A stretch of DNA of 64,000 bases from Arbacia lixula (Eukaryota > Echinodermata > Echinoidea > Arbacioida > Arbaciidae), in NCBI GenBank assembly GCA_963669155.1, contig OZ022589.1:11389465-11453464 (forward strand). Reading direction: 5' to 3'. The notes under the pieces were generated by a model. That model did not search any database, had not been told where the DNA came from, and saw only the letters and a program-made list of their open reading frames with translations. This document shows positions 28,684 through 58,449 of the stretch, in pieces. How positions within the stretch are numbered: position 1 is the first letter of the stretch; every line of letters starts with the position of its first letter. The position numbers were made by a program, and so were the translations under genes.

Positions 28684-28687
28684 TTAA

Positions 28688-32094: not shown

Positions 32095-32830
32095 GGTCCT
32101 GGCACTGTCTCTGAACTGTTCGTTTACCTTTACAAAAATGATGTATTCCCAGATGAGATGACTTGATTATTCACGTAAATGACTGATCGTCTGTCGAGCA
32201 AGATCTATCTCGAGACGCTCGACTCTGCAATACAGCCTCCCCCAGCTCAGCGGCCCACTTCGATCAACTCTGACTGCAGCTAGCTGCACAGTACAGGCAC
32301 ACGTACGACATACAGCGGCCACGCAATGGAAGGTTAACCCCAACCAGCCCACTGGCACTCCACTGGTAAAGCGCTAGGCTGCCGCATAAAATCAACAAGC
32401 ACTCCGATAAATATCCAAGGCCAAAAATGAGTCCTAAAAATATAATTCCAAATTCACGCACGAATCAGCAATGTTTCCACGGTATTCAATGATGTTTCCA
32501 TGACTCTCATCCACACAATTATGAATTTGTTTAAAGAGAAACCAGTTCAAAATTTTCGAAAATGTTAGGTCGTCCTGCTGTACTCAACGGTGAGCAACTT
32601 GCCCTGCATTATCGCGATCGCACTTCCGCACCTCTCCAAAATGGCCGAAGCAATGTAAACTTTATTAGTCACGTGACACCGAGGGAATCCACAACCTCGG
32701 TGACTCATCGAGCTTGGCTTGGCTAGCCTAGCTAGACTCACAGCACAGATCAAATCTACAGAGTAGGTACAATATCTCAGAGTCTCACGAATTTCTAGGA
32801 GTAGGCCTAGTTGTATTATCATGTCTCTAT
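32095..32830 (-). promoter_or_regulatory. CpG-containing block, candidate minus-strand promoter
   Basis: Denser in CpG than the flanks and free of repeats. On the minus strand it has a GTCACGTGAC E-box palindrome near 32672, then GCTTCGGCCATTTTGGAGAG (YY1-like) near 32640, GCGATCGCG near 32615, and a short open frame starting ATGCAGGGCAAG. The order E-box, YY1-like string, ATG is promoter-like. It could be the start of a minus-strand gene such as the FERM gene 20 kb away, but no splice link can be shown. Confidence 0.25.
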
Positions 32831-33076
32831 TCCGTTATGATATTTTCTTTTCGCTGTGCTCTTATCCATTGAATGATCAACACATCTTGTACGTTAATTT
32901 GTTATAGACTCATTCGCAACCAGCAATCTTGCTTCTCGAGTATGGCTTCCAAATCATAATTAGAACTGGGCCAGGTATATAGATCTATGAGGTAGATCTA
33001 ATTGATTTTAACCCCAACAAAATGGCCAGGAACCATGGCAACGGATTTATTCATATTTTGTTAAAATCATTTTTAA
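32831..33076. other. Non-coding spacer
   Basis: Nothing recognised. Confidence 0.4.
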
Positions 33077-35276: not shown

Positions 35277-35366
35277 TTAACTCTTTGCAAGCCACATGTA
35301 CGTTTATCAACAAGTAATACACGCATAACGCATAGAGCGGAATGCTGTCTGGAGCACAAATGTTAA

Positions 35367-35864
35367 AGGGATAGACTACCTTGAAGTTAAGTTGGTTTCA
35401 ATAAAAGCAGAAACATAAAGAAACACACTAGTGAAGGTTTAACAAAAATTGGTCGAAGGATCAGAAAGTTATGATCTTTTGAAATTTCAATTTTGTGACG
35501 TCACGTGCGAAGTGCTCTCCCATTTATTGTGTGCTGTATGATTCCATAATAATTGTTTTCCTGTTTTTGACAACGGAACTATTTTTCCATGGTAAAAACG
35601 TGTGTCTAAATGATATATCAAATGCACAGGTAAAAAGATGCACATCTTTCTGAGAAAATGGACATATACACAAAATTGTAGACATCATAATTATGGGAGA
35701 GCGCCTTGAACGTGACGTCACAGAATCGAAACTTAGAATCGAAACTTTAATTTTTTAAAACTTTTTTATCCTTTGAACGATTTTCATCAAACCTTTACTT
35801 ATTTGTTTCTTTCATGTTTCTGCTTTTTATTGAAACCGACTTAAGCTCAGGATGAACTACCCCT
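35367..35864. mobile_element. MITE, family E (TTAA target) carrying CRE-like palindromes, copy 1
   Basis: TTAA at 35363-35366 and 35865-35868 brackets AGGGATAGACTACCTTGAAG and GGATGAACTACCCCT. The inverted arms contain GAAAGTTATGATCTTTTGAA-like strings and, symmetrically, GTGACGTCACGTGCG near 35496 and AACGTGACGTCACAG near 35708. TGACGTCA is the CREB/ATF palindrome, so each insertion seeds two such sites. Partial copies lie at 57725 and 60995. Confidence 0.82.
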
Positions 35865-35868
35865 TTAA

Positions 35869-36579
35869 ACATGTCCACAGTCAAGGCCAGCCGCATACAT
35901 TGTGCCATCTAATCGTATACAGTCTAGACGGTTACAGACTGGGACCCGAGGGCCCTGTGGTTACAGCATGACATAGTGAGCTCAGTGAGGAGAGGTTACG
36001 TCTCCCTCTTGTGTTATTATTTAGACAGTCGTTTGTCGAAATATATGGTCCCGTTTTCGTTCTGAAACGGATTACGTAGTCCAAGTTTGCGTTTAAGGAG
36101 CAAAAAGCAAAGATTAAACAAAATTAGGTTGCGAAATAACAACCAAAATAATTAATAAGAAAGTTGTGAAAGATTTCACTATACGTGAAGTTTATAAGAC
36201 AACAGGCACATGTGGCTGTGATAATTTTCAAAGCCTTACATTTTTTTTTAATACACGATATACACTACATTTGTTATGATTTGAGATCCTTAATTCCCCC
36301 AAGAAAACTTTTCCGTACGTCTGCTCCCCCCCCCCCTCTCTCTCCCTTTCTCTCTCTCTCTCCCTCTTTGTCTTTTTCTCTCTCCCCTCCCTCTACCCTT
36401 CGCTTTCTCCCCCCTTCTGCACAAATCTCTCTCCCCCCCCCCCCCCCCCCTTGTTCTCCCTCATCCCTTTACGGTCCTTGTTTGCATGTGGTTCTGGCAT
36501 TTACTTAACATGTTTGTCTACGTGGAGTGTGTTTGTCGATACCCGGGGGAGTAGAATTAGAACACAACAGTTTCTATAG
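35869..36579. other. Non-coding stretch with CT-rich and poly-C tracts
   Basis: CTCTCTCC-type sequence and C runs at ~36325-36455 generate a meaningless Ser/Pro/Leu frame. The rest has no recognisable feature. Confidence 0.55.
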
Positions 36580-36847
36580 TTAACGTCCGAGCCCTCATAC
36601 CGTTGGTAGGGTCATAAATAATGCACATGCGCGTTAGGCAATGCGTATGAGCGAAAGGTGTAGTAAATTATCTTTCATTGTATACAATTCTAGATGGTTG
36701 CGAGAGTCCAATGTTGGTACGGTTATGAATGACCTTGGGAAAGCACTTTCCAGCTCTGCAATTTTTGGCAATTTTGGATATGTTATAAAATATACTTTTC
36801 TGCATATCATGGCTATTTCACAGTTTCTGTCGCAATATTAGTGGGAG
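36580..36847 (+). repeat. Upstream flank of the duplicated sulfotransferase unit
   Basis: TTAACGTCCGAGCCCTCATA through GAGAGTCCAATGTTGG recurs at 39314-39461, and the following ~120 bp (ATGACCTTGGGAAAGCACTT) recurs at 39826-39940. It includes GCACATGCGCGTTAGGCAAT, a CpG-containing patch. Because it repeats both before and after the gene copy, it marks the unit of a tandem duplication. Confidence 0.8.
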
Positions 36848-37529
36848 CAGGGAGGTGTTACGAAGGAGTAGAAACTCGAGCATAATACATTCAAACATCT
36901 GTATGGGTTCTAAAGCGTGCTCATGAATGCCAAAAGCATTCCATCATCATGACAATGCTTTGATGTTCCATGTGACGGGCCGACATCTAGCTGTTGTCAA
37001 CTTGAAAAGAAATTTCTTTAATTTCCCATTTGTCTGTAGACGTTTTGTTTTTGACAAATTTGTTCGCAAACTATAAGGAAGTTAACGGCAGATAATGACA
37101 GATCCCTTACTCTGCTTTTGTTTCGAAAAGTATTGAGGAATCATTAAAAAACGGACATATAAGCTATTTGTAACACTTACAAAATTGAGAATTTTTCACT
37201 TTCCGACATATTGTGCATTTGGGGGATTCAACCACTCTCAAAAAGGGGTTTGTGTGCAGCAGAGATATTTTACTTGAAAAACTTGTTTATTTGTGTTTGC
37301 TGATACCTGTTATACTCATGGAAGTATTAATGTCATTAACAGAACGGGACAAGTGAAATGAGACTGAACATTTCTTTTGTTCTCTCTGAGAAGCCGTTGC
37401 CACACAATCATGTTTATAATTATTCAAACACCTGAACAGCACATGTTGAGAACACATAACTTTTCAGCGTGTGGCACATGGGTTCAAAGAAAGAAAGTTG
37501 CTTCATATCCTTCCATAACACATCCCTGG
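36848..37529 (+). mobile_element. ~680-bp element, family F (CAGGG termini), complete copy
   Basis: Begins CAGGGAGGTGTTACGAAGGA and ends TCCTTCCATAACACATCCCTG. GTGGGAG stands directly on both sides (36841-36847 and 37530-37536), a 7-bp target duplication. Internal landmarks are CAAACATCTGTATGGGTTCT, GTTCGCAAACTATAAGGAAG and CACCTGAACAGCACATGTTG. No protein. CAGGG is the usual start of hAT elements, but hAT duplications are normally 8 bp, so the superfamily is uncertain. Confidence 0.8.
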
Positions 37530-37958
37530 TGGGAGGTTGAACCCTTTTTACACTAGATTGACACGGCATTACAATAATTAATAATTAATCATTTACGATC
37601 TAGCCTTGCTATCAGACTGTTGGGCGTTTATAAACTAAACTATTCATTGAAAGGTCTGGCTGTAGTAGACTAATCATTCTCGATTTCTTCTCTAGCTCCG
37701 CCAACATTTGGGACAGACTCAAAACAGAGGATAATGATACAGTAACTAGTCTTAGAAATTTAGACATTTTTCCCAGTTTGGATCAGAAATATCCGACAGC
37801 CTTGCTCGAAGCCATGTTACACATAATCTTGCTCTTGTGGCTTGTGTGTATTTCGTACCGGTGGGACAAAGTGCGTGGCTTGCCTTTATTTGCACTGTAC
37901 TCCAGCTCCCGCAACTTTCCTCACAAGAAGCCAGTTCGTAATCGCAACAAGAAACATC
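37530..37958 (+). repeat. Duplicated 5' block of sulfotransferase copy 1
   Basis: Homologous to 46565-46887 and 48806-49111. It contains a TTTCTTCTCTAG acceptor-like string and then the block starting CTCCGCCAAC. In the other copies ATGTGGGACAGACTC follows and opens a 68-78-codon frame. Here the ATG is ATT and one T is missing near 37770, so that frame is lost. Probably 5' untranslated exon sequence. Confidence 0.65.
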
Positions 37959-38978
37959 ATGGATGTCACATCTAGGCGGGCTTGGTTCGTTGCTTTATTT
38001 GCCGTCATCGTTTTGATAACGAGTCTTGCCATGTTCATGGAACGCGTTCAGCACGAATACGACCTACGGCCATCATACAAGGTTGAGCAGAATGCCAGTC
38101 TCCTGGGCCTCAGCAACCAGGCCGCTAGGGCCGGGAGAAATGGCCCTAGTCAAGTCGCCTACGGTAAGGCGGTCTACCACGAGAACATGACGGTGATGTT
38201 CCTCTGCATGCCGAAATGCGGGACGCGCACGCTCAGAACAATTTTCAGCCGACTGTGGAAAATTAATCATTTTGGTGCTCCAACGAGAATCGAGGTCATG
38301 CTCGACAACCGATCCGTCGCCGACGCCCGGCGAGAAATAGACGGGAAGCTAACCAATGCTCCAGATGGGACCGTTCTCCACGGGCATTACCGCTATCTTG
38401 ATGTGGGCGTGGCACCGAGGAAACCCATTCTCATGAGTATCATCAGAGACCCGGTAAGCCGATTCGAATCTCACTTCTATTTCATGCGTTTTAGCGATAT
38501 TTCTGGCAAAGATCGTGGCTTGAATCACGGCAACTTGGCAAAGAACGAGACTGTGGATGATTGCGTTGAAAAGAAATTAAAGGAGTGCAGTTCAGAGTAC
38601 TTCCGTTTCATGTACGTGCATTCCTTCTGTGGGTATGACGTCGAATGCAACTCTCCGGAATATGCCCTCCAGCAGGCCAAACAGAATGTGGACAAGTTCC
38701 TCGTCATCGGGATCACCGAAGAATACGACCTCTCTCTCAGGGTCTTCGAAAAGCTTCTTCCCGCCACGTTCAGCAATTCACTTAACGTGTACGCGCAAAT
38801 CAAAGAGACATCGATAACAAAGTATAAGACGAGCTTCAAGAAACCGGCATCTCCGAAGACATCGTCCCATTTGAGAAACTGGATGGAAAAGGAGTACGAA
38901 TTCTATGACTACGTGAAGGAAAAGTTCTACCGCCTGGTAAAAAGGCTAGGCGTGGGAGACCAGACTGAATCGCTTTGA
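37959..38978 (+). CDS. Uronyl/heparan 2-O-sulfotransferase-like enzyme, copy 1
   Basis: An intronless 339-residue type II membrane protein. It has a short basic cytoplasmic tail, one membrane anchor (residues 8-26, AWFVALFAVIVLITSLAMF) and a lumenal catalytic domain, so it should act in the Golgi. It would transfer sulfate from PAPS to the 2-OH of a uronic acid in glycosaminoglycan chains. Visible motifs are the 5'-phosphosulfate loop MPKCGTRTL (84-92), a catalytic HGH (141-143) followed by YRYLD, and the 3'-phosphate motif RDPVSRFESHFYF (163-175). Near the C terminus are FCGYDVEC, ALQQAKQNVDKFLVIGITEE and EYEFYDYVKEKF. The last resembles vertebrate UST more than HS2ST. Asn-X-Ser/Thr sites occur at 45, 76 and 117. 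I chose the ATG at 37959 because the upstream in-frame stretch lacks an ATG and the anchor follows directly. A near-identical copy lies 11 kb away. Confidence 0.88.
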   Translation: MDVTSRRAWFVALFAVIVLITSLAMFMERVQHEYDLRPSYKVEQNASLLGLSNQAARAGRNGPSQVAYGKAVYHENMTVMFLCMPKCGTRTLRTIFSRLWKINHFGAPTRIEVMLDNRSVADARREIDGKLTNAPDGTVLHGHYRYLDVGVAPRKPILMSIIRDPVSRFESHFYFMRFSDISGKDRGLNHGNLAKNETVDDCVEKKLKECSSEYFRFMYVHSFCGYDVECNSPEYALQQAKQNVDKFLVIGITEEYDLSLRVFEKLLPATFSNSLNVYAQIKETSITKYKTSFKKPASPKTSSHLRNWMEKEYEFYDYVKEKFYRLVKRLGVGDQTESL

Positions 38979-39278
38979 GTCGCTTTGGATGTCAGTTGAA
39001 AACTATGTTTATGCATGGACCTATCATGGATGGACTGCGCTCGGATAGACTTCCTTTGATCTCTGATGACCGCCGCCTCCTAAAAATTCAAGACATTCAG
39101 GTGTCTCAAACAATACGCTATATTTCTAATTATTATTCAGTGTCTTCCTCTGAAAAACAAAAGAAAATTTGGTTTGAGAAGTATGTCAACCGTTCAGCCT
39201 TCGCTAGGAGTTCATAGCTGATCTTATTACACACGCTGGAAATTAGATTGGGGGTGTGCGAAGGGAAATTTTGATAAA
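38979..39278 (+). repeat. 3' flank of copy 1, shared with copy 2
   Basis: Matches 50135-50435 almost base for base (TGCATGGACCTATCATGGAT, GTTCAGCCTTCGCTAGGAG, GAAATTAGATTGGGGGTGTG), so the duplication extends ~300 bp past the stop. Likely 3' untranslated sequence. Similarity stops at GGGAAATTTTGATAAAAT. Confidence 0.75.
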
Positions 39279-39313
39279 ATAATTGTTTTCCTGTTTTTGA
39301 CAACGGAACTATA
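39279..39313 (+). repeat. 35-bp scrap of a family E MITE at the duplication junction
   Basis: AATAATTGTTTTCCTGTTTT then TGACAACGGAACTAT also occurs inside the MITE at 35367-35864 (near 35550-35584). Here it lies exactly between the end of the sulfotransferase unit and the repeated upstream flank. This looks like filler DNA copied or retained at a breakpoint. Confidence 0.7.
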
Positions 39314-40312
39314 TTAACGTCCGAGCCCTCATACCGTTGGTAGGGTCAGAAACAATGCACATGCGCGTTAGACAATGCGTATGAGCGAAATGTGTAGTAA
39401 ATTATCTTTGATTGTATACAATTCAAGATGGTTGCGAGAGTCCAATGTTGGGTACGGTTAATGGAATCAAGTGTGACATTCACTGATGAGATTGGATCTT
39501 CCCTCTATAGGGTCCGAAGCATGAGGAGACCATTGCATGATTCGTAACACAGTGAATGTCAATGTCAATATGTCACTGTCAATGTCAGATAAAAGCTTTC
39601 CACCACTTCCCCCCCCCCCTGTAATTTTTGGTAATTTTCGGCACACGCCTTCCAACAGACCAAACGGAACGTGGACAAGCTCCGATTCGACCCCCTCTGG
39701 TTTAAAAAGGGTTTCATCTGTCTTTTCTGTCAATTATGAAGCTAACTTTAACTTGATACCTACCCTCAAAACATAGTCGATATCAAAATCACCAAAACAG
39801 TGCTTTTGGGTCCCTTTATGAATGACCTTAGGAAAGTACTTTCCAGCCCTGCAATTTTTGGCAATTATGGATATGTTATAAAGTATACTTTTCTGCATAT
39901 CATGGCTATTTCACAGTTTCTGTCGCAATATTAGTGGGAGCAGGGAGGTTCAAACATCTGTATGGGTTCTAAAGCGTGCTCATGAATGCCAAAAACATTC
40001 CATAATCATGACAATGCTTTGATGTTCCATGTGCCGGGCCTACATCTAGCTGTTGTCAACTTGAAAAGAAATTTCTTTAATTTCCCATTTGTCTGTAGAC
40101 GATTTGTTTTTGACAAATTTGTTCGCAAACTATAAGGAAGTTAACGGCAGATAATGACAGATCCCTTACTCTGCTTTTGTTTCTAAAAGTATTGAGGAAT
40201 CATTAAAAATCGGACATATAAGCTATTTGTATTACTTACATTGAGAATTTTTCACTTTCCGACATCTTGTGCATTTGGGGGATTCAACCACTCTCAAAAT
40301 GATATATTGTAT
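39314..40312 (+). repeat. Second copy of the upstream flank plus partial family F element
   Basis: 39314-39461 repeats 36580-36725, 39826-39940 repeats 36726-36847, and 39941-40312 repeats the first half of the family F element with a ~36-bp gap near 39948. A ~365-bp insert at 39462-39825 is absent from the first copy. Similarity ends at CAACCACTCTCAAAATGATA. Confidence 0.75.
39645..39695 (+). pseudogene. Short decayed sulfotransferase fragment
   Basis: CTTCCAACAGACCAAACGGA then ACGTGGACAAGCTCCG aligns with the part of the sulfotransferase gene coding ALQQAKQNVDKF (CTCCAGCAGGCCAAACAGAA then TGTGGACAAGTTCC). About 40 bases align at ~80 percent. It lies in the 365-bp insert and suggests an older, now lost, third paralogue. 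Confidence 0.5.
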
Positions 40313-41969
40313 CGAAATAGCCCTCATTTAAGAGGCTAGGTCCGTTATTTTATGTGTAATTGGCTAAAAACTTTTTTTTGTTTCAACATGTATTTTATTT
40401 ATCAATGAACACCAATTTTACAGAACATTAAACAATTATTCATGAATGATTTAAATGACAATTACTGTAACAAATTAAAAAATATTTCCAGAAACACATT
40501 CGTCATAATCATTGATCATAACAAATTTATACAAACTGTCAGATTTTTCAAGAATTACATCAAATTACAACAATAAAGAAAAACAACCATTAATCGCTGT
40601 TCAAAAGGAAAAACATATCATTCGCTCATTGTGTTCATTGATGAATTAGATAAGAAAAAAGGACACCAAAAAGGCCCTTCCCTCCATTACCCCTACCCCA
40701 CCCCTCCACCATATCCCGCCCTCTCCTTTCCCTCCACCCCCCCCCCCCCCCGGGCTTCTTATACATGCACTTATTTCTTGTGGAACAGGAGCATACGTAT
40801 TACCATCTCTAGAACGAGTTGCAGGGCATATCTTGGTGGATACTAAAAATACTTCTGAATTGTCGTCCCACTCCTTCAATGTTAATAAATATACGTTTTA
40901 TTTAAGTTTGTTTTATTTTATTTTCAAATACATAAAACTCACAAGGCAGGGGAGCCCTACCATATCCAATTTTCCCACTTTTTCAAGTGCACTGATAATG
41001 TATTATGCAAAACTGCTATCCTTTTTTCTTCTAACCTATCTTGTTCAATCTGGCTTTTAACCGATTGTTCAGTTATTTGTGTGTTCTTTCCTCTTCCTAA
41101 GAAAACGATTATTGGAATCGATTATCGAAAATAGTTGAATCGATCGGCCAATTATTATGATTGATAGTGAAAAATGTGATAATTTTTGGGAAATTAATGA
41201 TTATAATTTCAAGAAATAAAAGAAAACTGGACTAAGGTTATTCTATTATAATAGAAAATTAAATTATCTATCAAATGACGCCTCATTCATGGCCCACTGT
41301 AAAATATTGGTGGAGAAAATGTCTGTAAAGTGGGGTAAACCGAGCAGAACAATTAATGACCACAATTAATTTATAAAATTAATGACCACAATTAATTTAT
41401 AAAATTAATGTTTAATAAATGAGCACGCTCTGTGTATAATAATGTTAGGTTCAAAGCCTGTAAATTGCACATCTGTGGATTGTAGATACTTGACTCTCAG
41501 GTCACTATACTTCTGATTCTTTGCTCTCGTAGATATCAGAAAATCTCACTTTTCGTTGTTCATGATTTTTTGTCTCACGTAATATTTTTGAAAATTATAT
41601 GTTGTCAAAAATATAGCAATAGGAATGCCATTTGTTGCCCATTGTAACTATTACATATGTGCTGAAAAAACATTTTTTGGGTAGTAGAATTTGAGCTAAA
41701 GTATACTGGACACATCCGGGCTTGTACAGCATAGCTGTATGTATAAACCATTGGCAGTACACACAGCACTGTACTATGTGTGTGCACTGGTACAGTGCTG
41801 TGTGATCAGCCTCGTTCACGTGTATCGGCAGTTGATCTGCAATAATGTATGTAAACAATGCAGCTGACAGTCTGCAGCATGTGGATACAATGGAAGCCCT
41901 GTTAACTTCAGTCTTCTGATTCATTTGATTTTGAACCTGTAAAGTGTTGTATTCAAGGAACTAAAGAGG
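40313..41969. other. AT-rich non-coding stretch
   Basis: Holds poly-C at 40738-40751 and a 28-bp unit (ATTAATGACCACAATTAATTT type) repeated twice at ~41351-41409. No gene seen. Confidence 0.5.
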
Positions 41970-42197
41970 ATGGAAACTGGAAAGGTAACTCCATTCCAGG
42001 AGAAAAGCTGGAGAAAATGTGTTACTTGCTGCCTACGCTGGGTGAACGTAGAAGATTGTCAAGAGAGAACTATTGCAAAGAAATGTGTTGAGCAGTTCAA
42101 TCTCCTCACTGACGATGGTGCATCACAGACTCAGACTAATGCCGGCTACCACCGTAGATGTTACCAACAGTTTTGCCATGTTGGAAAACTTGTTTGA
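41970..42197 (+). CDS. Small Cys/His-rich ORF, transposon-type domain fragment
   Basis: A 75-codon frame METGKVTPFQEKSWRKCVTC, CLRWVNVEDCQERTIAKKCV then NAGYHRRCYQQFCHV. The CxxC and YHRRCYQQF spacing resembles a Cys/His module that precedes many invertebrate transposon-like proteins, in which YHRxCYxxF is followed by a charged linker. The frame stops soon after. A possible donor (AAAG then GTAACT) lies 16 bases after the ATG. Probably a remnant of a mobile element gene or a lone exon. I do not recognise a named family. Confidence 0.35.
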   Translation: METGKVTPFQEKSWRKCVTCCLRWVNVEDCQERTIAKKCVEQFNLLTDDGASQTQTNAGYHRRCYQQFCHVGKLV

Positions 42198-42884
42198 GCA
42201 GAGTCCAGGAAGAATGATGATATTGATTGTGATATGGATTAGATAAAGCATCCCACTGAAAATTATGAGGCCATCTCAATAATATCTATTTTTGATTCCA
42301 ATGCAATTAAAATGAAAATAATACATGTACGCAACAGCATACTTTCTACAAACAAGCTGTAATTGTATAGAAATATTTGTTAAACGTCAAATCCCTCCCT
42401 CCCCCCCCCCCGAAATGTTGATTTGAATCAATAGAGCAAAAAAAAAAAACAAAAAAACCATAATAACGTAAATTTCATCAAAATCGTTTGTAAAATAAGA
42501 AATTTATGCCAGTCTTCAGGCCTTTTAGGCTTTATATTGTAAAGTACATATGGGTCATGGACATATTCTGGTTTCTTTCAGGTCCAGTTAGTAAAACTAA
42601 CTGGCATCCCTTTATTTTAAAGTTTTGATTATTTCTTAACAAAACAGTTATATGCACAACTAAGTGATATGCAAGTGAGAGACTAGATGGTATCACTCGC
42701 TATTTCTTTTGTTTTCTTTTGGATTATAATATGAACCAAAGACTTAAAAATACCTAATGTACAAATATCCCTTTGGATGCTTTATTGATGTGAGTAAAAT
42801 ACTACATGTACATTACTTATAAAACATGTTTAAACTCTGATTTTTTTTATCAAACAAGTGTGCTAAATTAAAGTTACTTAAAAT
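42198..42884. other. Non-coding stretch, nothing recognised
   Basis: AT-rich with a poly-C run near 42402 and poly-A near 42441. Confidence 0.45.
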
Positions 42885-43345
42885 AAGATGATTGTGATGA
42901 GATGGTTGGTGTGATGAAGGTGATGTTGATATTGATAAGATGATGGTTATCTAACACTCTTTTCAACATCATCATCATCATTCTATCAAGCATTTCATCA
43001 CTATCATTATCAGGCCATCATAACCATCATGTTATCAGTATCAGTATCTGTTGATAATGATTATGATGATGATCTGATGGTGATGAAATGACTGTTGGGA
43101 TGATGTAGAATATGGTGATGACAAAAGATAATGATGATGATGAAATGATTGTTAGAATGATGATGATCTGATGGAGATGGTGTGAAATGAGTGTTGGGAT
43201 GATAAAGAAGATGTTGATTAAAGATGATGGTGATGAATTGATTGCTACAATGCTGATGATGATGATGATCTGATGGTGATGGTGATTAAATGATTGTTGG
43301 GATGATGATGATAATTAAATTATTTGTTATGATGCTGATGGTGAC
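42885..43345. repeat. Degenerate (GAT)n/(ATC)n microsatellite with strand switch
   Basis: GATGATGATG arrays interleave with GGTGATGAAATGATTGTTGG-like higher-order units. Between 42960 and 43040 the phase flips to CATCATCATC, so the block can form hairpins. Confidence 0.8.
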
Positions 43346-43875
43346 CAGATGATGCGTCATTTTGCATAAATTTGCATTATCAGAAAAATATTTAATATAT
43401 CAAAAACAATAACAATCACAAAAAATGTTTTTTTTTTTCATGTACGTACATGTATTTGGTAAAAACAAACCTCATATGGAATGTAAGTACATGGTTCAAT
43501 CAAAACAAGTTAAATGTGAATCGATTACAGTTAGATGAAGGCTTAAACCTATATTTCTCCCGGGTGTGGGGAGGGGGGGGGGGGGGGGGGGGTCCATAAC
43601 ACTAAGCCTATCGGGTCCCTCGACAACTCAAAGTTGCTAAAATGTACAAAATGTGTTTTCAGGTAATATTCGTAAATGAGTGCTTATTTCAGCTTTTATT
43701 GACACAGTCGTTTAATTTGATGCTATTTATTACTGTAATAATGTCACTGAAGAATTTTGCACAAAAACGAAACAAAAGTGAAAAAACAACAGAGTGGTTC
43801 GCGAACCACGAGTCTCGCCTGATTTCCCTATCGATAAACAGTGCTATTTTTTTTGTCAAATATTTTTTCAAACCT
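43346..43875. other. Non-coding stretch with poly-G run
   Basis: Contains a run of ~20 G near 43573-43592. No gene. Confidence 0.45.
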
Positions 43876-44213
43876 TTTGACCCCTAGATGACATGTGACC
43901 CCATCAGCCTCATGAAGAGACACATGTGGTATTACCCAAGGAGCATTTGTACCAAGTGTGATCACAATTAATGAGGAAATAAAGAAATGAGAGCAAGTCA
44001 AACGAAAACTTTTTTCAAACAGACCAACAGAAAAATGATGCACATCATTTGACCTTTTAACCCCTAGATGAGCTTTGACCCCATCATCCTCATGACGACA
44101 CATGTGGTATTACTCAAGGATCATTGGTACCAAGTTTGATCACAATTGCTACCGAAATAAAGAAATGAGAGCAAGTTAAACAAGAAATTTAACATTTTTG
44201 TAACAGACCAACA
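43876..44213 (+). repeat. Two ~150-bp direct repeats
   Basis: TTTTGACCCCTAGATGACAT onward at ~43877 and TTTTAACCCCTAGATGAGCT onward at ~44055 share CATGTGGTATTAC, CAAGTGTGATCACAATT-like strings and AAATAAAGAAATGAGAGCAA, ending in AACAGACCAACAGA. This arrangement is a dispersed repeat type I recognise from marine invertebrates. Non-coding. Confidence 0.65.
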
Positions 44214-45606
44214 GACTAACAGGAAAAGTGATCACTAGGTCTCTGCCGAACTTTGCTCAGGCGAGACAAAAACAAAGAAATACAAAAAAAAACATAAGAA
44301 ACCGACTTTGTTAACAGATTTTTTTCAAGTTCAATGGTTGGGAATGCTATAAAGAATATGTGCGTAAAAATTTGCAATCTTGGAGCTTTATTTTGCAAAT
44401 TAGAACAAAAAGCATGATTTCATGAATAAATTAGCATAATTAATTCATATAAAATGAAATGTATACATGAAGATTTAGTGAAATTCTAATGTTGGGTGAC
44501 CAGATTCCATATTTTCTTCATCTTAACTAAGTTTCTCTTCAAAAGATATACATGTACTTGAATATACAACATACATTTTTTTAAAGACGGTATTTTGCAT
44601 GAATTTGCACAAATTAACCAAAATTGGCATTTATCGTATCAATGCACTAACAGTATGTATCAAGTAATAGGAGAGTACATGAATTTTAAATTATTGTTTG
44701 ACTGGGAAGTTGCTATCAACTCTTTGTTCAGTAGATTACAGTTAATCATTTTTGCATAAATTTACATAATTAAGACTCAATATCTTGAAAATTTGTAGGT
44801 TAGCTGCTTGGCAACAATCATACTTGGATTCAGCACAAAAAGTTACCCAAGATCACAAAAATTTAGGTGGGGCGAAAAGTTGGACAACGAAAATAAAAAA
44901 CTAGGCCTCTTTTGCCATGTCATCCCATGCTCTAACGGCTTGATGACGGCTTAAAGGGCTGAAAGTACACCGTGCTTGGTAGCCCGGCATTTGCTTTGTT
45001 CTTAGTTAAAGCTAAGGCCACTAAGTGGCATTCCGACGCTTTGTGCAAGTAGGTGTTTGCTGTCGTCGCTGAGGTTGATGAGGTATGATTACTACCATGT
45101 GTAGTTTACATTAAAAGATGAACATAAGCCACACAAACCAATGTGTGTTGAATCATGTTATGGAATTAATGTGTTAATTGAACGAGTGGAATGCACGTTG
45201 ACTGCATGTTGATGAGTTGGAATGTTTAATGAGGTGTGATAACCTGACTGTCGAGCCGCGTTGCAGACGGCTGATGTGAGCTGGGCCAGCGTGGGACCTG
45301 AGCCAGTGTGGGACCTGTGTCAGCGTGGGACAATTGAGCCTGTGACACCGTGGGACAATACGGGGAATGCTGAAATAAGTAGAGGTTAGAACTGCAGTGG
45401 TGCTGAAGGTGTCGTAAATTGCGACGAAACGAGACCACGTCAACGAGCTCGGAGGATCTTGGCCGGAACCGGTGGCGTGTTGTACGGTCGGTGATTTCGG
45501 CATCCTGACAAGTTCCGGGGTAACCGATCGTACGACTTCCCACCGTCTGCCCCTTCTATTCTTGCATAAAGATTAAATAAAAAGGGGTGTTCCGCTACAA
45601 TATTAA
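44214..45606. other. Non-coding stretch with short tandem motif near 45280
   Basis: AT-rich to 44.9 kb, then more GC-rich. At 45284-45355 a ~20-bp motif (GCCAGCGTGGGACCTGAG type) repeats about four times with drift. At 45568 GATTAAATAAAAAGG is a polyadenylation-like signal, and TGTTCCGCTACA follows. This could be the end of a retroelement or a gene's 3' end; neither can be shown. Confidence 0.35.
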
Positions 45607-46244
45607 AGGGCCCCTGTCATCAAAATATATGTTGACTTCTGTGATGCAACATAACATGTACATAACAAAATCACTAACTGTTCAATGGAAATATGTGTCC
45701 TATATGTTAAAATATTTTTTCTTTATTTTTTCTCAGCACTGATAAGCCCCGCCTCCAAAATATCCTCCAACTCAAGATTCCCCCCTGTGACATCATCAAA
45801 GGTAGAAATTAGCAGGATAATAAGTAAAATTTATGCACAAATCAAACATTGCAATGACTACCTCCACCTGCCCACAAGAGCATCACATGTCTTCACACAA
45901 TACCATCTAACAACCTTTCATGTGGGAATAATTGTTTCCTTATGTCAGAAATGTGCTAGCTATGTGATGCTATTATATAAGCACTTGCAGGTGGTCATTG
46001 CAATGCTTAGGTTGTGCATACATTATGTCTATTATCCTGCTAATTTCTACCTTTGATGATGTCACAGGGGGAATCTTGAGTTGAAGGATATTTTGGAGGC
46101 GGGGCTTATCAGTGCTGAGAAAAAATATAGAAAAATTATTTTAAAATATAGGACACATATTTCCATTGAACAGTTAGTGATTTTGTTATGTACATATTAA
46201 GATGCATAACAGAAGTCAACATATATTTTGATGACAGGGGCCCT
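45607..46244. mobile_element. Palindromic MITE, family D (TTAA target), compact copy
   Basis: AGGGCCCCTGTCATCAAAAT to ATTTTGATGACAGGGGCCCT, with TTAA at 45603-45606 and 46245-46248. The arms are about 200 bp each and include CTCAGCACTGATAAGCCCCG and TTTCTACCTTTGATGATGTC. The right flank continues inside a family F element (GCTGTGTATTATCATTAC), so this copy landed in, or recombined with, that element. No coding capacity. Confidence 0.85.
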
Positions 46245-46248
46245 TTAA

Positions 46249-46564
46249 GCTGTGTATTATCATTACATGTAACGGCGTTTGTGTGCAGCAGATATATTTT
46301 ACTTGAAAAACTTGTTTATTTGTGTTTGCTGATACCTGTTATACTCATGGAAGTATTAATGCCATTAACAGAACGGGACAAGCGAAATGAGACTGAACAT
46401 TTCTTTTGTTCTCTCTGAGAAGCCGTTGCCACACAATCATGTTCATAATAATATTGTTCAAACACCTGAACAGCACATGTTAAGAACACATAACTTTTCA
46501 GCGGTGTGGCACATGGGTTCAAAGAAAGAAAGTTGCTTCATATCCTTCCATAACACATCCCTGG
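46249..46564 (+). mobile_element. Family F element, right half only
   Basis: Matches the second half of 36848-37529 (CACCTGAACAGCACATGTTA, CTTCCATAACACATCCCTG) and the flank beyond it. Its left half is replaced by the family D MITE. Confidence 0.75.
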
Positions 46565-46887
46565 TGAGAGGTTGAACCCTTTTTACGCTAGATTGACGGC
46601 ATTACAATAATTAATAATGAATAATTTACGATCTAGCCTTGCTATCAGACTGTTGGGCGTTTATAAACTAAACTATTCATTGAAAGGTCTGGCTGTAGTG
46701 GACTAATCATTCTCGATTTCTTCTCCAGCTCCGCCAACATGTGGGACAGACTCAAAACAGAGGATAATGATACAGTAACTAGTCTTAGAAATTTAGACAT
46801 TTTTTCCCAGTTTGGATCAGAAATATCCGACAGCCTTGCTAGAAGCCATGTTACATATAATCCTGCTCTTGTGGCTTGTGTGTATTT
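46565..46887 (+). pseudogene. Truncated third copy of the sulfotransferase 5' block
   Basis: Matches 37530-37853 closely, including TTTCTTCTCCAG then CTCCGCCAACATGTGGGACA, and keeps the frame MWDRLKTEDNDTVTSLRNLD. It stops at GTGTGTATTTC, exactly where a family F element begins. In the two other copies the sequence continues to the enzyme's ATG ~105 bases on. The catalytic part is missing here. Confidence 0.7.
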
Positions 46888-48329
46888 CCAGGGATGTGTT
46901 AGGAAGGAGAAGCATAATATATTCAAACATCTGTATGGATACTAAAGCATGCTAATGAATGTCAAAAGCATTCCACAATCACTACAATGCTTTGATGTTC
47001 CATGCGCGACACCGACATTTAGCTGCTGTCAACTTGGAAAGCAATATCTTTAATTCACTGTTTTGTCTCTGGAAGCTATGTTTCTTATCACATTTTTGTG
47101 CAATTTTCAAGAAAGCTACGGGCAACACCACTATAAAGATCCTGTACTCAGTTTTCTTCTAAATAATTGTTGAATGATGCACAAACGGAGATTTAAGATA
47201 ATATTCTTACTTACACAATTCACAAATTTCTTCAATTTCCGCAGATTTCCGCAAACATGGGATTCAATCATTATCAAAATTATATCTTAAGCTGTTTATT
47301 TTCATTAACAGAGTTTGCGTGCATTTGCGTGCAACTGATATATTTTAGTAAAAAAAAAACACGTTTATTTTTGTTCGCTGATATCTCTTTTCCTCACAGG
47401 GTATTGGTGCAATCCAACAGAACTGGACAAGCGAAATAAGGCTCTTCATTTCTTTTGTTCTATCTTAGAAACCGTGGCTACGCAATCATGTTCGTTATTA
47501 TGAAAACACCTGAAAAGCACATGCTGAGAACACATAACTTTTCAGCGGTGTGGCACATGGGTTCAAACAGGGATGTGTTATGGAAGGATATGAAGCAACT
47601 TTCTTCCTTTGAACCCATGTGCCAAGCCGCTGAAAAGTTATGTGTTCTCAACAGGTGCTGTTCAGGTGTTTGAACAATTATGAATATTATTGTGTGGCAA
47701 CGGTTTCTCGGAGAGGACAAAAGAAATGTACAGTCTCATTTCGCTTGTCCCGTTCTGTTAATACTTCCATGAGCATAACAGGTATCAGCAAACACAAATA
47801 AACAAGTTTTTCAAGTGAAATATCTCTGTTTCACGCAAACACACACAAACGCCGGTAATGATAATACACAGCTTAATATATCATTTTGAGAGTGGTTGAA
47901 TCCCCCAGATGCACAAATTGTCGGAAAGTGAAGAAATTGGCCAATTTTGTAAGTAATAAAAATAGCTTATATGTCCGATTTTTAATGATTCCTCAATACT
48001 TTTCGAAACAAAAGTAGAGTAAAGGATCTGTCATTATCTGCCGTTAACTTCCTTAAAGTTTGCAAACAAATTTGTCAAAAACAAAACGTCTACAGACAAG
48101 TGGGAAATTAAAGAAATTTCTTTTCAAGTTGACATCAGCTAAATGTCGGCACGGCACATGGAACATCAAAGCATTGTCATGATTATGGAATGCTTTTGGC
48201 ATTCATGAGCACGCTTTAGAACCCATACAGATGTTTGAATATATTATGCTCGAGTTTCTGCTCCTTCGTAACACCTCCCTGGTTCAAAGAAAGAAAGTTG
48301 CTTCATATCCTTCCATAACACATCCCTGG
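46888..48329. mobile_element. Two nested family F elements
   Basis: The outer, more diverged copy starts CAGGGATGTGTTAGGAAGGA at 46889 and runs to GGGTTCAAA at 47567. It resumes at 48283 (TTCAAAGAAAGAAAGTTGC) and ends CATCCCTG at 48328. The inner copy, inverted, fills 47568-48281 (CAGGGATGTGTTATGGAAGG to CACCTCCCTG) and is flanked by GTTCAAA on both sides, a 7-bp target duplication. The nesting explains the long inverted repeat around 47570. Confidence 0.8.
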
Positions 48330-48805
48330 GTGGTATTTCATAAAGAAGTGGTTTGCAATAATTGGAAATCTCGAAACTATGGCAAAGTCACTTTGCCATA
48401 ATTGGAAATTGTCATAAAAAATTGGCCAAATCGATTTCATAACTCCAATGACAACTTGATCACGAATTGCGGATGGATTACGTACGGGCGCATGCGCACA
48501 ATGCTCATTTTTGGCCGTCTGCTCGCCGAAATGGTGGAAAGTCTAACTGCAACATTTTGTTGCTTGCGTAATAACGTGTGTTTTCAATGGGTTTTGGTTT
48601 TGCGATGCGGTGCGTGTATTATCAATGGACGGTTTTGGAAGACGGCAACTTACACTGGTCGGTTGCGTAATGAATTTTCAATGGGTTTAGGCTTTGTGAT
48701 GTGGAGCGTGTATTAACGATGCACAGTTGTGTACCGTAATACAGTACGTACATGCATGCAATTTTATACTGATGCTCACGACCTCCGAGACTCGAGAGCA
48801 CTCGA
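48330..48805 (+). other. Spacer with NRF-1-like site and ~55-bp direct repeats
   Basis: Starts with a MITE-like terminus GGGTGGTATTTCATAAAG. It contains GGGCGCATGCGCACAATG near 48487 followed by GCCGAAATGGTGGAAAG. TTTTCAATGGGTTTTGGTTT plus GCGTGTATTATCAATG (48573) is repeated with changes at 48676. The NRF-1/YY1-type pair 350-620 bp upstream of sulfotransferase copy 2 could be its promoter. Confidence 0.35.
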
Positions 48806-49111
48806 GAGTCTGGCTGTAGTAGACTAATCATTCTCGATTTCTTCTCTAGCTCCGCTAATATGTGGGACAGACTCAAAACAGAGGATAATGATACAGTAAC
48901 TGGTCTTAGAAATTTAGACATTTTTTCCAAGTTTGGATCAGAAATATCCGACAGTCTTGCTAGAAGCCATGTTACACATAATCCTGCACTTGTGGCTTGT
49001 GTGTATTTCTTACCGGTGGGACAAAGTGCGTGGCTTGCCTTTATTTGCACTGTACTCCAGCTCCCGCAACTTTCCTCACAAGAAGCCAGTTCGTAATCGC
49101 AATGAAACATC
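48806..49111 (+). promoter_or_regulatory. 5' block of sulfotransferase copy 2 with a 78-codon upstream frame
   Basis: Homologous to 37530-37958. TTTCTTCTCTAG then CTCCGCTAATATGTGGGACA; the ATG at 48860 opens a frame MWDRLKTEDNDTVTGLRNLD and onward. It ends with TAA at 49094-49096, 15 bases before the enzyme's ATG. If transcribed as one exon this is an upstream open frame that could limit translation of the enzyme. The encoded peptide resembles no family I know. Confidence 0.4.
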
Positions 49112-50134
49112 ATGGATGTCACATCTAGGCGGGCTTGGTTCGTTGCTTTATTTGCCGTCATCGTTTTGATAACGAGTCTTGCCATGTTCATGGAACGCGT
49201 TCAGCACGAATACGACCTACGGCCATCATATAAGGTTGAGCAGAATGCCAGTCTCCTAGGCCTCAGCAACCAGGCCGCTAGGGCCGGGAGAAATGGCTCT
49301 AGTCAAGTCGCCTACGGTAAGGCGGTCTACAACGAGAACATGACGGTGATGTTCCTCTGCATGCCGAAATGCGGGACGCGCTCGCTCAGAGAAATTTTCA
49401 ACCGACTGTGGAAAATTAATCATTTTGGTGCTCCAACGAGAATCGGGGCCATGCTCGACAACCGATCCGCCGCCGACGCCCGGCGAGAAATAGACGGGAA
49501 GCTAACCAATGCTCCAGATGGGACCGTTCTCCACGGGCATTACCGCTATCTTGATGTGGGCGTGGCACCGAGGAAACCCATTCTCATGAGTATCATCAGA
49601 GACCCGGTAAGCCGATTCGAATCTCACTTCTATTTCGTGCGTTTTAGCGATATTTCTGGCAAAAATCGTGGCTTGAATCACCACGGCAACAAGGCAAAGA
49701 ACGAGACTGTGGATGATTGCGTTGAAAAGAAATTATATGAGTGCCGTTCAGAACACTTCCGTTTCATGTACGTGCATTCCTTCTGTGGGTATGACGTCGA
49801 ATGTAACTCTCCGGAATATGCCCTTCAGCAGGCCAAACAGAATGTGGACAAGTTCCTCGTCATCGGGATCACCGAAGAATACGACCTCTCTCTCAGGGTC
49901 TTCGAAAAGCTTCTTCCCGCCACGTTCAGCAATTCACTTAACGTGTACGCGCAAATCAAAGAGACATCGATAACAAAGTATAAGACGAGCTTCAAGAAAC
50001 CGGCATCTCCGAAGACATTGTCCCATTTGGGAAACTGGATGGAAAAGGAGTACGAATTCTATGACTACGTGAAGGAAAAGTTCTACCGCCTGGTAAAAAG
50101 GCTAGGCGTGGGAGACCAGACTGAATCGCTTTGA
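49112..50134 (+). CDS. Uronyl/heparan 2-O-sulfotransferase-like enzyme, copy 2
   Basis: An intronless 340-residue paralogue of 37959-38978 with the same anchor, PAPS loops (MPKCGTRSL, RDPVSRFES), HGH catalytic motif and C-terminal EYEFYDYVKEKF. It differs by 16 substitutions and one extra His (LNHHGNKAKN against LNHGNLAKN). Changes cluster at residues 63-120 and in the loop after the 3'-phosphate motif (about 176-214), while residues ~215-325 are identical. Changes next to the PAPS loop (TRTLRTIFSR to TRSLREIFNR) might alter activity or substrate choice. The stop is shared. Both copies are intact, so both may be expressed in the Golgi. Confidence 0.88.
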   Translation: MDVTSRRAWFVALFAVIVLITSLAMFMERVQHEYDLRPSYKVEQNASLLGLSNQAARAGRNGSSQVAYGKAVYNENMTVMFLCMPKCGTRSLREIFNRLWKINHFGAPTRIGAMLDNRSAADARREIDGKLTNAPDGTVLHGHYRYLDVGVAPRKPILMSIIRDPVSRFESHFYFVRFSDISGKNRGLNHHGNKAKNETVDDCVEKKLYECRSEHFRFMYVHSFCGYDVECNSPEYALQQAKQNVDKFLVIGITEEYDLSLRVFEKLLPATFSNSLNVYAQIKETSITKYKTSFKKPASPKTLSHLGNWMEKEYEFYDYVKEKFYRLVKRLGVGDQTESL

Positions 50135-50435
50135 GTCGCTTTGGATGTCAGTTGAAAACTATGTTTATGCATGGACCTATCATGGATGGACTGCGCTCGG
50201 ATAGACTTCCTTTGATCTATGATGACCGCCGCCTCCTAAAAATTCAAGACATTCAGGTGTTTCAAACAATACGCTATATTTCTAATTATTCAGTGTCTTC
50301 CCCTGAAAAACAAAAGAAAATTTGGTTTGAGAAGTATGTCAACCGTTCAGCCTTCGCTAGGAGTTCATAGCTGATCTTATTACACACGCTGGAAATTAGA
50401 TTGGGGGTGTGCGAAGGGAAATTTTGATAAAATTG
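50135..50435 (+). repeat. 3' flank of sulfotransferase copy 2
   Basis: Near-identical to 38979-39278. Similarity ends at TTTTGATAAAAT, the same point as in copy 1, after which the two loci diverge completely. Confidence 0.75.
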
Positions 50436-51014
50436 TTGAAAGTCCGTAACTTTTTCAGACATCTCCGCACATGAAATCGAGGTTTTTTCTACGGAAGGTA
50501 AACCACACAATAAACGATATACGAGATATTTGTAAATATGATTGCCCAATGTGCGATTTGGAGGCATTTCTCTGACATGTTTTCTGCAGTATTCTCCTTT
50601 TATCACAAAAACGAAGCAACAATATAATCTGAAATTCACAGAATCGTATCATTATACGATGTTCTACAGCTGGACATGCACTTCAGTACACGAAATGGTT
50701 CTGAAATCTTTTGCGCATACATAATATGTATTCCTCTTAATGCATCGAAGATTTGTCTTGCATATTTGGCGGCGGACCTCCCTCGATCAAAGAACCAAAC
50801 GCGTCAAATATTCTATTGTGCTATCAATGAACGCAATTGGTGTAGGAATAAATTACTCTTCGTGCCGACTCCGGTTTTAACACCTTCCTGGTTGATGTGT
50901 GTTGAGGGGTGGAGTGGGGTGGGATGGGGTGGGGTTGTTTGTCGATGTTCGATGGTTGAGGAGTATCATTCTTTGGATGGGTATAAGATGGATTGAGGGG
51001 GTGATTATATCAAA
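50436..51014. other. Non-coding stretch, nothing recognised
   Basis: Includes a GGGGTGGGATGGGGTGGGG patch near 50917-50935. No gene. Confidence 0.45.
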
Positions 51015-51220
51015 AATCCAAAAATGTCCGGCGGGAACATTTTGATGATTTTTTTCTTATTGAATCATTAATTACTCCAAATATGGATCATTTGAGGGCA
51101 AATAACCTTCAGCAAGTTTCCAAATTAGACAATACATGACTTTAAGACAATTGGTAAGAAGATTACTCACGAACACCTTTTTGAAGGCATTTTGTCTTCC
51201 CAGTACAATATATTCTCTTT
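51015..51220. mobile_element. Foldback MITE, family B, copy 3 (one arm)
   Basis: Shares GATCATTTGAGGGCAAATAA, TTCAGCAAG, AAGAAGATTACTCACGA-like strings and CTTCCCAGTACAATATAT with the right arm of the copies at 10772 and 28320. The left arm is absent. Confidence 0.75.
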
Positions 51221-51286
51221 GACTCGGCCTTTTTAGAGCAAAACTGATCACTATTTGGCTTTTAAATTGGCAACACTACTTTTTTG

Positions 51287-51451
51287 GGGGAAGCAATCGT
51301 TATTCCGAAGGTTCGTTATTCCGAACGTTACGCGACAAAATTAATGCTCGGATTAACGAACCCTTTTTCGTTTTCGGACTAACGAGCATCGAAGTATAGG
51401 CAATTTACGTGTTTCGGAATAACAAACCTTCGGAATATCGAACTGTAACCC
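51287..51451. mobile_element. MITE with TTATTCCGAAGGTTCGTTAT termini
   Basis: TTATTCCGAAGGTTCGTTAT near 51301 is mirrored by TGTTATTCCGAAACACG read in reverse near 51407-51440, with further symmetry out to GGGG and CCCC. It is CpG-rich, ~165 bp and non-coding. Confidence 0.72.
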
Positions 51452-53542
51452 TTTTTTAAAATTAAATGTTTATGAAGAAACGTAATGTAAATTCCATTAT
51501 AAATTAATAAAATGTCAAAATCGTTCAAGTTAGAGCAAGAAGCATCCCAATTTGTAAAGCAGAGGGGTTTCAGCGAGTTGCCAATTAAGATTTAGTGCCC
51601 GCTTGACCTTTATTCTACATTGAAAAATCGTTACGAACGTAATGTGCCCCAAATAGATTCATTTGTACAGAAATTTATGCTCTTTCCCGTGATGCACCTT
51701 CTATTATTTTTACAGCTGATATCAATAGTTACAGCCCCAAACCATAATTGTGGTACAATGTACTTGGTCCCGAATGGGTTAAAGGACTGCCCAGCCAAAA
51801 TACATGTTACTTCATTACATCCAAGTGATCTATATACAGTGTAGCGATAAATCTTCTCTTTTTCTAAAGTACGTAGACCTATTTGATTGAAATAAATTCA
51901 CGAGCTTCCTTATCACTACGCATTATCCTTACAGAAATATTTTGAAAGGAATAAGTAATTATGACTTCCAGTGTGGGTCTCAAGCAGTACAACAATATTT
52001 CAAGCTTTATCTTCACACAGTTGCTTTAAAATATGTGGGAAACATTAAACGAAGCCAGCTTACCCAATACGGCCACCAAAACAGACTTTTACGTATACAT
52101 TTTTGCTCGCCCAAAGTGCAAATCCGGGCCAATGTGGGTGTCGAACCCTGCAATGTGTATAACAATTTATACAATTTTACTCTTTATTTTCACCATCCAC
52201 ATATTGCAAAACCTTTATATTTGGCCATGATGTGCAGCTCAGCCAGCTTAGCTTCATCTATAAAGACTAAGAAATATTTCTTCATTCTGATGTGTACATA
52301 AAGTTTCGTTTTTACAGTTTTTTTTTTTTTGCTTTTTAGGGTTTTTATTCGTCCTGTTGGGACCTTTTTGGACTAAACGTTTTTATTTCATCTTGAAGTT
52401 TTATACTGTAAAGATGATAATGTTGGTAAACTCATTTGTTGCAAGATCTGCCACTTGAAATCAAAGGTTTTAGTATTTAGTAAGACAATCTGACTTCCCA
52501 TAGACTTTAAACACTACAGTCCCGGTGTTATGGTACTATGTTGTATACTGTAGTTCATAGTTGTAATGATAATATAGTTTTTTTTATGCACATTACACAT
52601 TACTATTTTTGCCACATTTTTTTTTTTTTTTACTGAGACAACCTATTTATCCATATACTTTGTACATGACCTTCAGATGTCCAGGTGTTACGGTCTCGGT
52701 GTTACGGTACCATCTTTTGTATTCTAGTTCATAATTATCTTCATGATATATATTTTTTTCCAGATAGCACCTAACTTTTATTATTGAGTCTTTTCTAAAT
52801 CAAATCAATTTAGCAAAGTTTCAAAATGCTTATTCACAGAGTTTTGATTGTATGTAAAGTGTTAAAAAACGAGTTTTTGATTATGCGTAACTCATTGATT
52901 ATAATTTTGTATTTTTATCCTTTTTAAGTTGTTTGTGATAACAGTCAAAGGTGTACAATAAAACTTTGTTCTCATTCTCTACACTTAATTTGTTGTTTAC
53001 ATTTGAAAAGTTCTGAAGTGTTCCGGTGTTTCCGTGGTGTTAGTGCCAATCAAGCTGAAATCTCTTGTTCTAACTGAAAGAGGGGCGAACTTAACTTTAT
53101 AGATTTCTATTGGACAATAAGTGATAAGAATCGTGTGGTCGATGTATACGGGATCCGGAGAAGACGCATGATTTTTCAACCTTCTTCTTCGAAGACTTCC
53201 TTCGAACTTCTTTTGAATACTTCATTCTGATGTTCTTCGTTCGATTTGATGGTTATTTTGGGAAGCAATGCACAGGCTGCTGTTCGAGGTGAATAAACAG
53301 ATAAAAGGTCACTGAACTGTCAAACTTTGTTGGTGAATTTTGTGCATGGTTACGGTCGAGCGAACGAACAGAAGATGTGGATGGGACTGAGGGTAAAAGG
53401 AGCGTAGAAGCGTGATGTGAAAATGTACGGAGCAATAAAGGCCGGATCAGGGACTACACGTGGAATTGCCCACAAAACATACTGTTTCAGTGCAAGAGAA
53501 TGCGTTATTCTATCGTATAAATCAAGGACAGTTTAATCGGTT
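51452..53542. other. Non-coding stretch with one direct repeat
   Basis: CGGTGTTATGGTACTATGTT (52521) and CGGTGTTACGGTACCATCTT (52697) start ~56-bp direct repeats. Otherwise AT-rich. The open frame near 51942-52301 has no recognisable domain. Confidence 0.45.
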
Positions 53543-57359: not shown

Positions 57360-57724
57360 GACTATAATAAAAGTAACGGTCGATAATTATTACATACAGA
57401 GAGATCACCTTTTTTTGATATGCTGGCAGTGCCTTTGCCATTCTGAAAGCATTTGGATAACAACCACTTGATAATGGATCTGTGATATGAAGGATCATTT
57501 GCTTAATAAAGTATGAATCTATACCATCATGGCCATAATGGCTTACTCACTTTCAGTGACTTAACAACATTTATATTTTAGTCGGATGAACGGGTTTAAA
57601 TAACAGAGAGTGTGCGCAATGCACAGACATATAAAGTCTATAAATAAATTGTTTTGAACTTCATCTATAATTTCTATCTGACTCGGTCCAACTTTAGCAA
57701 AGTATTTGTTTATTCACATTTCTG
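57360..57724. other. Non-coding spacer, nothing recognised
   Basis: AT-rich, no open frame of note. Confidence 0.4.
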
Positions 57725-57877
57725 CGCATCTCGTACGTGACGTAACAAAATCAAAACCTTAAAAGTTGTAATTTTCTTATCCTTGGACGGATTTTCTTGA
57801 AACCTTCACTCATATGTTTCTTCCATATTTCTGTTTTGTATAAAAAGTAACTTAACTCCAGGATAGACTTTCCCTTT
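57725..57877. mobile_element. MITE, family E, copy 2 (one arm)
   Basis: CATCTCGTACGTGACGTAAC, then CTTGGACGGATTTTCTTGAA and AACTCCAGGATAGACTTTCC follow the right arm of 35367-35864. The TTAA boundary is lost, and the CRE-like palindrome has decayed to TGACGTAA. Confidence 0.65.
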
Positions 57878-58445: not shown

Positions 58446-58449
58446 TAGA

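Follow-up and report, generated by a model that had tools for sequence, protein, structure and literature searches.

Near-neutral divergence in a young pair of HS2ST-like sulfotransferase genes of Arbacia lixula

A window of 64,000 nucleotides from the echinoid Arbacia lixula (assembly GCA_963669155.1, contig OZ022589.1, positions 11,389,465 to 11,453,464 of the forward strand; coordinates below are counted from its first letter) contains two closely related sulfotransferase genes separated by about 11 kb (Table 1). Their coding sequences (CDS) differ at 24 bases, 19 in replacement codons and 5 silent ones in codons 40, 49, 214, 231 and 238. The replacement bases change 16 residues, with two changes in each of codons 94, 194 and 209, and copy 2 has one extra in-frame codon, a His at alignment column 190. 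This recount reproduced exactly the tally of an initial annotation of the DNA, including its inserted His; the region given there as identical, residues from about 215 to 325, contains replaced columns 215 (Y/H, at its edge), 303 (S/L) and 307 (R/G) and the silent changes of codons 231 and 238. The pair is real, young and intact, its protein divergence matches drift, and it is ordinary in kind.

Among solved structures, the best match was heparan sulfate 2-O-sulfotransferase (HS2ST1, PDB 4ndz/3f5f), with E 2.2e-23 over residues 139–325 of copy 2. In Pfam, copy 2 scored 25.6 bits against a cut-off of 22 for PF03567 (Sulfotransfer_2), for which copy 1 was unlisted at E 0.001. Likeness to uronyl 2-sulfotransferase (UST) and the galactose-3-O-sulfotransferases (PF06990) is divided in the opposite way, copy 1 passing the cut-off of 27 with 30.1 and copy 2 missing it with 23.1. 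The family name is soft, because Pfam names near-identical copies differently and its scores are weak. HS2ST itself is a homotrimer that adds sulfate at the 2-O position of uronic acid in a glycosaminoglycan. Judged from sequence, the protein is HS2ST-like and related to heparan sulfate 2-O-sulfotransferase.

Residues were mapped by sequence alignment to 4ndz, four alignments being compared; K350 of the N-sulfate pocket lies outside the compared part. The catalytic HGH motif is present in both copies as H141-G142-H143, aligned with H140/H142 of HS2ST, and R164 and S172 of HS2ST, which we take to be the 3'-phosphate motif, correspond to R163 and S171 in both. In the loop P82-K83-T84, which serves the 5'-phosphosulfate of 3'-phosphoadenosine-5'-phosphosulfate (PAPS), the first two residues are kept as P85-K86 and T84 is replaced by C87, in both copies and in 4/4 alignments. 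These loop residues of HS2ST are described in PMC6081452, and H142 as the catalytic base in PMC6094399 and PMC6081452. Since the catalytic His and the PAPS-binding Lys (K86), Arg and Ser are kept, both copies could still be enzymes. The likeness to HS2ST1 comprises equivalents of P82-K83, H140/H142, R164 and S172 and a strong hydrophobic segment at N-terminal residues 8–28 of the kind found in type II Golgi enzymes, and we infer a Golgi-type membrane location. The differences are the single-exon gene of 339–340 amino acids, the Cys at T84, and the substrate residues: in the N-sulfate pocket, R80 is Cys and R288 is either Thr or Tyr; R184 and R189 are unconserved throughout the four alignments, which place either His or Leu at R189.

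At residue 63 (38145 / 49298) copy 1 has P and copy 2 has S, giving copy 2 an extra N-glycosylation sequon, N61-G-S; the sequons number 4 in copy 1 and 5 in copy 2. A search with a single protein as query, which finds close relatives only, yielded 4 pattern stretches in viral contigs and 20 stretches in prokaryote genome contigs, with 0 confirmed relatives in either. A literature search found no report of duplicated HS2ST-type genes in invertebrates among the papers listed, which is not proof of their absence.

The excess of replacement over silent changes had been considered telling in the initial annotation, on the ground that silent changes should dominate under purifying selection. By NG86 counting, the CDS has 797 replacement (N) and 220 silent (S) sites, 1017 in total. 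Because about 78% of the sites are replacement sites, such an excess arises by chance alone: random mutation of 24 bases, simulated in 4000 runs, changed 17.2 ± 2.2 residues, and 16 are observed. In the same simulation, 48% of the runs were free of a premature stop. The simple rates of replacement (19/797), silent (5/220) and flanking (14/602) change are all 2.3–2.4%. Substitutions in the CDS (24/1020) do not differ from those in the flanks (14/602; Fisher p 1.0) or from those in all non-coding DNA with an upstream piece, partly repeat DNA, included (26/1012; p 0.78). The case is a warning that a raw count in which replacements outnumber silent changes equals the neutral expectation and is not a sign of adaptation. 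Dominance of silent changes is to be expected only under purifying selection, of which the pair shows little at the residue level.

Estimates of the ratio of replacement to silent rates (dN/dS) agree with these counts. NG86 gave dN = 0.0242 and dS = 0.0231, i.e. a ratio of 1.05, and maximum likelihood (our own GY94 script, three codon-frequency models, whole-gene average) gave 1.37–1.50. In this whole-gene average no ratio significantly above 1, as would mark a positively selected pair, was found (p 0.41–0.53). A value of 5 was disfavoured (p 0.027–0.037), as was 0.5 (p 0.02–0.035), and 0.3 was rejected (p about 0.001 or less). It might be supposed that these are ordinary constrained duplicates with a true ratio of about 0.5–0.65, one copy being constrained and the other free, and that the high estimate comes from small numbers. 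There are just 24 changes in all, 5 of them silent, and under one codon-frequency model pairwise ratios of 0.55, 0.6 and 0.65 are not rejected (p 0.057, 0.087 and 0.124, respectively), but ratios of 0.5 or less are disfavoured (p 0.035 or less) and replacements are as frequent per site as changes in the flanks, so that we judge this explanation quite improbable. A pairwise ratio of about 0.55–0.65 is also what is expected if one copy is free and the other is held at 0.1–0.3. Because such values are weakly disfavoured (p 0.06–0.12), relaxation in one copy alone is strained, and constraint would have been relaxed in one copy or, more likely, in both.

Divergence is distributed unevenly along the duplicated block. 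In a change-point scan of the whole block, the optimal break fell at 38670, on the border of codons 237 and 238 of copy 1, with 33/1016 differences to the left and 5/611 to the right (permutation P 0.02 with the change point searched). Consequently, divergence is about four-fold lower in the 3' 611 bp, non-coding DNA included. With the boundary of the initial annotation, the contrast is 31/948 vs 7/671 (Fisher P 0.004), and, by the same boundary, the 125 of 340 codons beyond column 215 hold only 2 of the 16 replaced columns (one-sided P 0.033). The low 3' divergence would not follow from protein constraint alone, because the 3' non-coding DNA is low as well (3 changes per 299 bp). Gene conversion is the likely agent that would have homogenised the 3' part. 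Signals of conversion are reported for 26 of 184 human duplications (PMC4546093) and for 22.2% of pea aphid duplications (PMC7475028).

Clusters of changes had been noted beside the PAPS loop and in the loop after the 3'-phosphate motif. Changes do sit in both places, but at the codon level clustering of the replacement columns is not significant (densest 40-codon stretch, P 0.19; longest gap, P 0.13; gap unevenness, P 0.055). At the base level it is modest in the CDS, with 3 adjacent pairs (P 0.013) and 5 changes within 20 bp (P 0.011), and these values weaken to 0.081 and 0.060, respectively, when the count is restricted to the more diverged 5' part. Codons with two changes number 3 vs 0.54 expected (P 0.014). 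Base clustering and double-hit codons, for which P is 0.01–0.02 overall in the CDS and 0.02–0.08 within the 5' part, could stem from multi-base mutations. Two other sources of the pattern were rejected. CpG hypermutation was discarded, 3/24 changes touching a CpG (copy 1 context). Import of the clusters from a divergent paralogue was discarded as the main cause because changes brought in from a constrained donor should be largely silent, and in columns 63–120 the replaced codons number 8 and the silent ones 0.

From these data the following history may be proposed. A block 1.6 kb or more in length with a complete intronless gene of a Golgi-type membrane sulfotransferase would have been duplicated recently (silent divergence about 2%) in a repeat-rich stretch. 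Replacement and silent changes would then have accrued at nearly the rate of the surrounding non-coding DNA, under relaxed constraint and with both frames remaining open. The last 0.6 kb, comprising the end of the CDS and the 3' flank, would have been homogenised by later ectopic gene conversion, the simplest cause of its lower divergence. In our opinion, a young duplicate under relaxed constraint, with its 3' end partly homogenised, is the probable description of the pair, although by a narrow measure. The initial annotation had offered relaxed constraint in one copy combined with 3' conversion, and this proposal fits best with the equal rates and the low 3' divergence, its restriction to one copy being the strained part.

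The pair fits the class of young duplicates in which selection is relaxed or pseudogenisation unfinished, apart from the placement of some replacements. For Drosophila paralogues, faster rates of duplicated genes, relaxed constraint and unfinished pseudogenisation are described, and the same study notes that sequence alone hardly separates relaxation or pseudogenisation from neofunctionalisation (PMC3906896). Pea aphid duplications also show conversion, yet for strict duplicates that study favours neofunctionalisation by positive selection (PMC7475028).

Several observations weigh against drift under relaxed constraint or against conversion. The CDS has 1 indel, in frame, per 1020 bases, vs 6 per 1012 non-coding bases (Poisson P 0.017, Fisher P 0.07); counted in just the two flanks, the non-coding figure is 3 per 602 (Fisher P 0.15). 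As indels are rarer in the CDS and no open reading frame (ORF) is broken, some selection to keep the frames is suggested. Neither locus shows a sign of faster mutation, since in the 202 bp of 5' flank shared with a third, partial copy the unique differences are 4 in copy 1 (one being a gap), 6 in copy 2 and 3 in the fragment. The longest change-free run, of 194 bp, lies within expectation (P 0.28), for which reason conversion depends solely on the contrast between the 5' and 3' parts, and plain rate variation is a possible cause of that contrast. Finally, the placement of replacements at residues 91, 94 and 97, as aligned to HS2ST, would not be predicted by drift.

These three columns, spaced by three, align with S88, N91 and Y94 of HS2ST in 4/4 alignments. 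According to PMC6094399, N91 and Y94 are docking contacts of suramin in the active site. In the loop with the inserted His, column 185 aligns with R184 in 2/4 alignments and column 190 with R189 in 1/4; R189 forms a salt bridge with the carboxylate of iduronate, and charge-removal mutations were made at R80, R184 and R189 (PMC6081452). The overlap was evaluated for six substrate positions (R80, N91, Y94, N112, R184, R189) over the first 237 codons with their 15 variable columns. The probability of chance overlap was 0.048 for at least 2/6 matches (two alignments), 0.0037 for 3/6 (one) and 0.00015 for 4/6 (one). When the set was widened to twelve functional positions, among them catalytic and PAPS residues, it was 0.032 for 3 matches and 0.0039 for 4. 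This overlap is a lead, not a test, because the set of positions was chosen after seeing the data and the alignment of the loop is unsure.

On this ground, adaptive divergence of substrate choice, also considered in the initial annotation, can be formulated more specifically. The preference for the acceptor sugar would have changed in one or both copies through residues 91, 94 and 97 of the helix that follows the PAPS loop, and through residues 185, 190 and 194 of the loop that holds the uronic acid in HS2ST. Purifying selection elsewhere in the protein would bring the average dN/dS near 1. The location of the changes relative to HS2ST, the three double-change codons and some depletion of indels in the CDS speak in its favour. 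Opposed to it are a ratio that is not significantly above 1, the choice of the six positions after the fact, and the variable sites 63, 74, 303 and 307, which align with none of the functional positions; moreover, one multi-base mutation can produce an adjacent double change, and the single helix face proposed for 91, 94 and 97 is transferred from HS2ST. We consider such a change of preference rather unlikely, and the fuller version, in which the pair would be splitting acceptor specificity (helix face and uronate loop altered by selection within about 2% of silent divergence) and conversion would have maintained a uniform 3' part, appears doubtful. If the adaptive explanation were true, the locus would be a natural experiment with two glycosaminoglycan-type sulfotransferases of few differences, in which the residues that determine acceptor choice are directly testable.

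The heterozygosity of some marine invertebrates reaches a range that includes 2.4%, and the divergence of the copies would fit two alleles of one locus that the assembler set next to each other, or an assembly error in one copy. Within this one window, homology is confined to the block among repeats. Stretches of 150 bp aligned just outside the two blocks are unrelated (61–63% mismatches), and the comparison of downstream regions, 39281–48800 vs 50434–64000, gave no match at E 1e-3. Upstream, 28000–37240 vs 39281–46270 gave 7 matches and 28000–37653 vs 46271–48807 gave 4; together these comprise the known 5' fragment and repeat pieces, which are out of order or inverted. Mis-assembled alleles are argued against because homology does not resume downstream and the upstream matches consist only of such pieces and the fragment. 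In addition, the third, partial copy lies between the two genes. The concern about separately assembled alleles, raised at the outset, therefore describes a very improbable case.

The duplicated pair belongs to a small gene-family neighbourhood churned by repeats, which abut the block (Table 1). At copy 1 the block extends further 5', and this extension is clearly non-repeat DNA only at 37530–37653; its first part, 37248–37528, is akin to the inverted-repeat element (90% to 47568–47840), a shorter relative of which ends at about 37529. The foldback-type element itself is placed between the 5' fragment and copy 2, and the fragment stops at it. Part of the repeat left of copy 1 (36848–37243) is also matched, inverted, at 47884–48281, and 39309–40308 matches 36574–37243 in pieces. 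A short remnant of an apparently more divergent sulfotransferase gene sits inside the repeat-derived DNA downstream of copy 1 and reads HAFQQTKRNVDKL where copy 1 has YALQQAKQNVDKF; as protein it matches only at E 3.8.

Table 1. Position of the sulfotransferase genes, the replacement clusters and the adjoining repeats in the window
Feature	Position	Strand	Remarks
Copy 1, sulfotransferase CDS, intact, single-exon, 339 aa	37959..38978	+	Pfam PF06990 above cut-off
Copy 2, sulfotransferase CDS, intact, single-exon, 340 aa	49112..50134	+	Pfam PF03567 above cut-off; PDB 4ndz HS2ST E 2.2e-23
Replacement cluster after PAPS loop: residues 91 (T/S), 94 (T/E), 97 (S/N)	38229..38248	+	HS2ST S88, N91, Y94
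Second cluster, after 3'-phosphate motif: columns 176, 185, 190 (His, copy 2), 194, 209, 212, 215	38484..38598	+	
Duplicated block around copy 1, 1.63 kb	37654..39280	+	97.1% identical to 48808-50433
Duplicated block around copy 2	48808..50433	+	Alignment to copy 1 block
5' extension of the block at copy 1	37242..37653	+	Matched by 46271-46686: 12 substitutions/410 aligned bases, 3 indels
Third, partial copy: 5' non-coding part of the block only	46271..46888	+	Last 202 bp (46687-46888) repeat 48808-49009
Inverted-repeat (foldback-type) element, CAGGGATGTGTTA-like ends	46889..48329	.	Self-inverse match 46888-48282 at 74.5%
Repeat left of copy 1	36574..37243	+	Similar pieces 39309-40299 (direct, right of copy 1)
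Repeat-derived DNA from the end of copy 1 block	39278..40308	+	39278-39315 vs 35548-35585, 97% over 38 bp
45-bp remnant, apparently more divergent sulfotransferase gene	39639..39683	+	80% identical to copy 1; DNA E 4.8e-5

Open frames also flank the genes. One, just upstream of the sulfotransferase, is common to copy 2 (48773–49093, +) and the third fragment (46667–46942, +) and reads ...SANMWDRLKTEDNDTVT...; in the counterpart at copy 1 the frame is shifted by a 1-base difference. Another, of 81–82 codons, occupies the 3' flank of both copies (38969–39214 / 50125–50367, +), its sole indel being of 3 bases. Upstream and downstream ORFs were rejected as hidden exons, since none of the four proteins tested matched Pfam at E of 1 or less. 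A further inverted-repeat family (10767–11148, 28316–28693, 51001–51220) has copies across the window. Part of a rhodopsin-type G-protein-coupled receptor gene (63180–63998, −; PF00001, E 1.7e-11) has a frame that stays open almost to the window end, at most two bases short of it.

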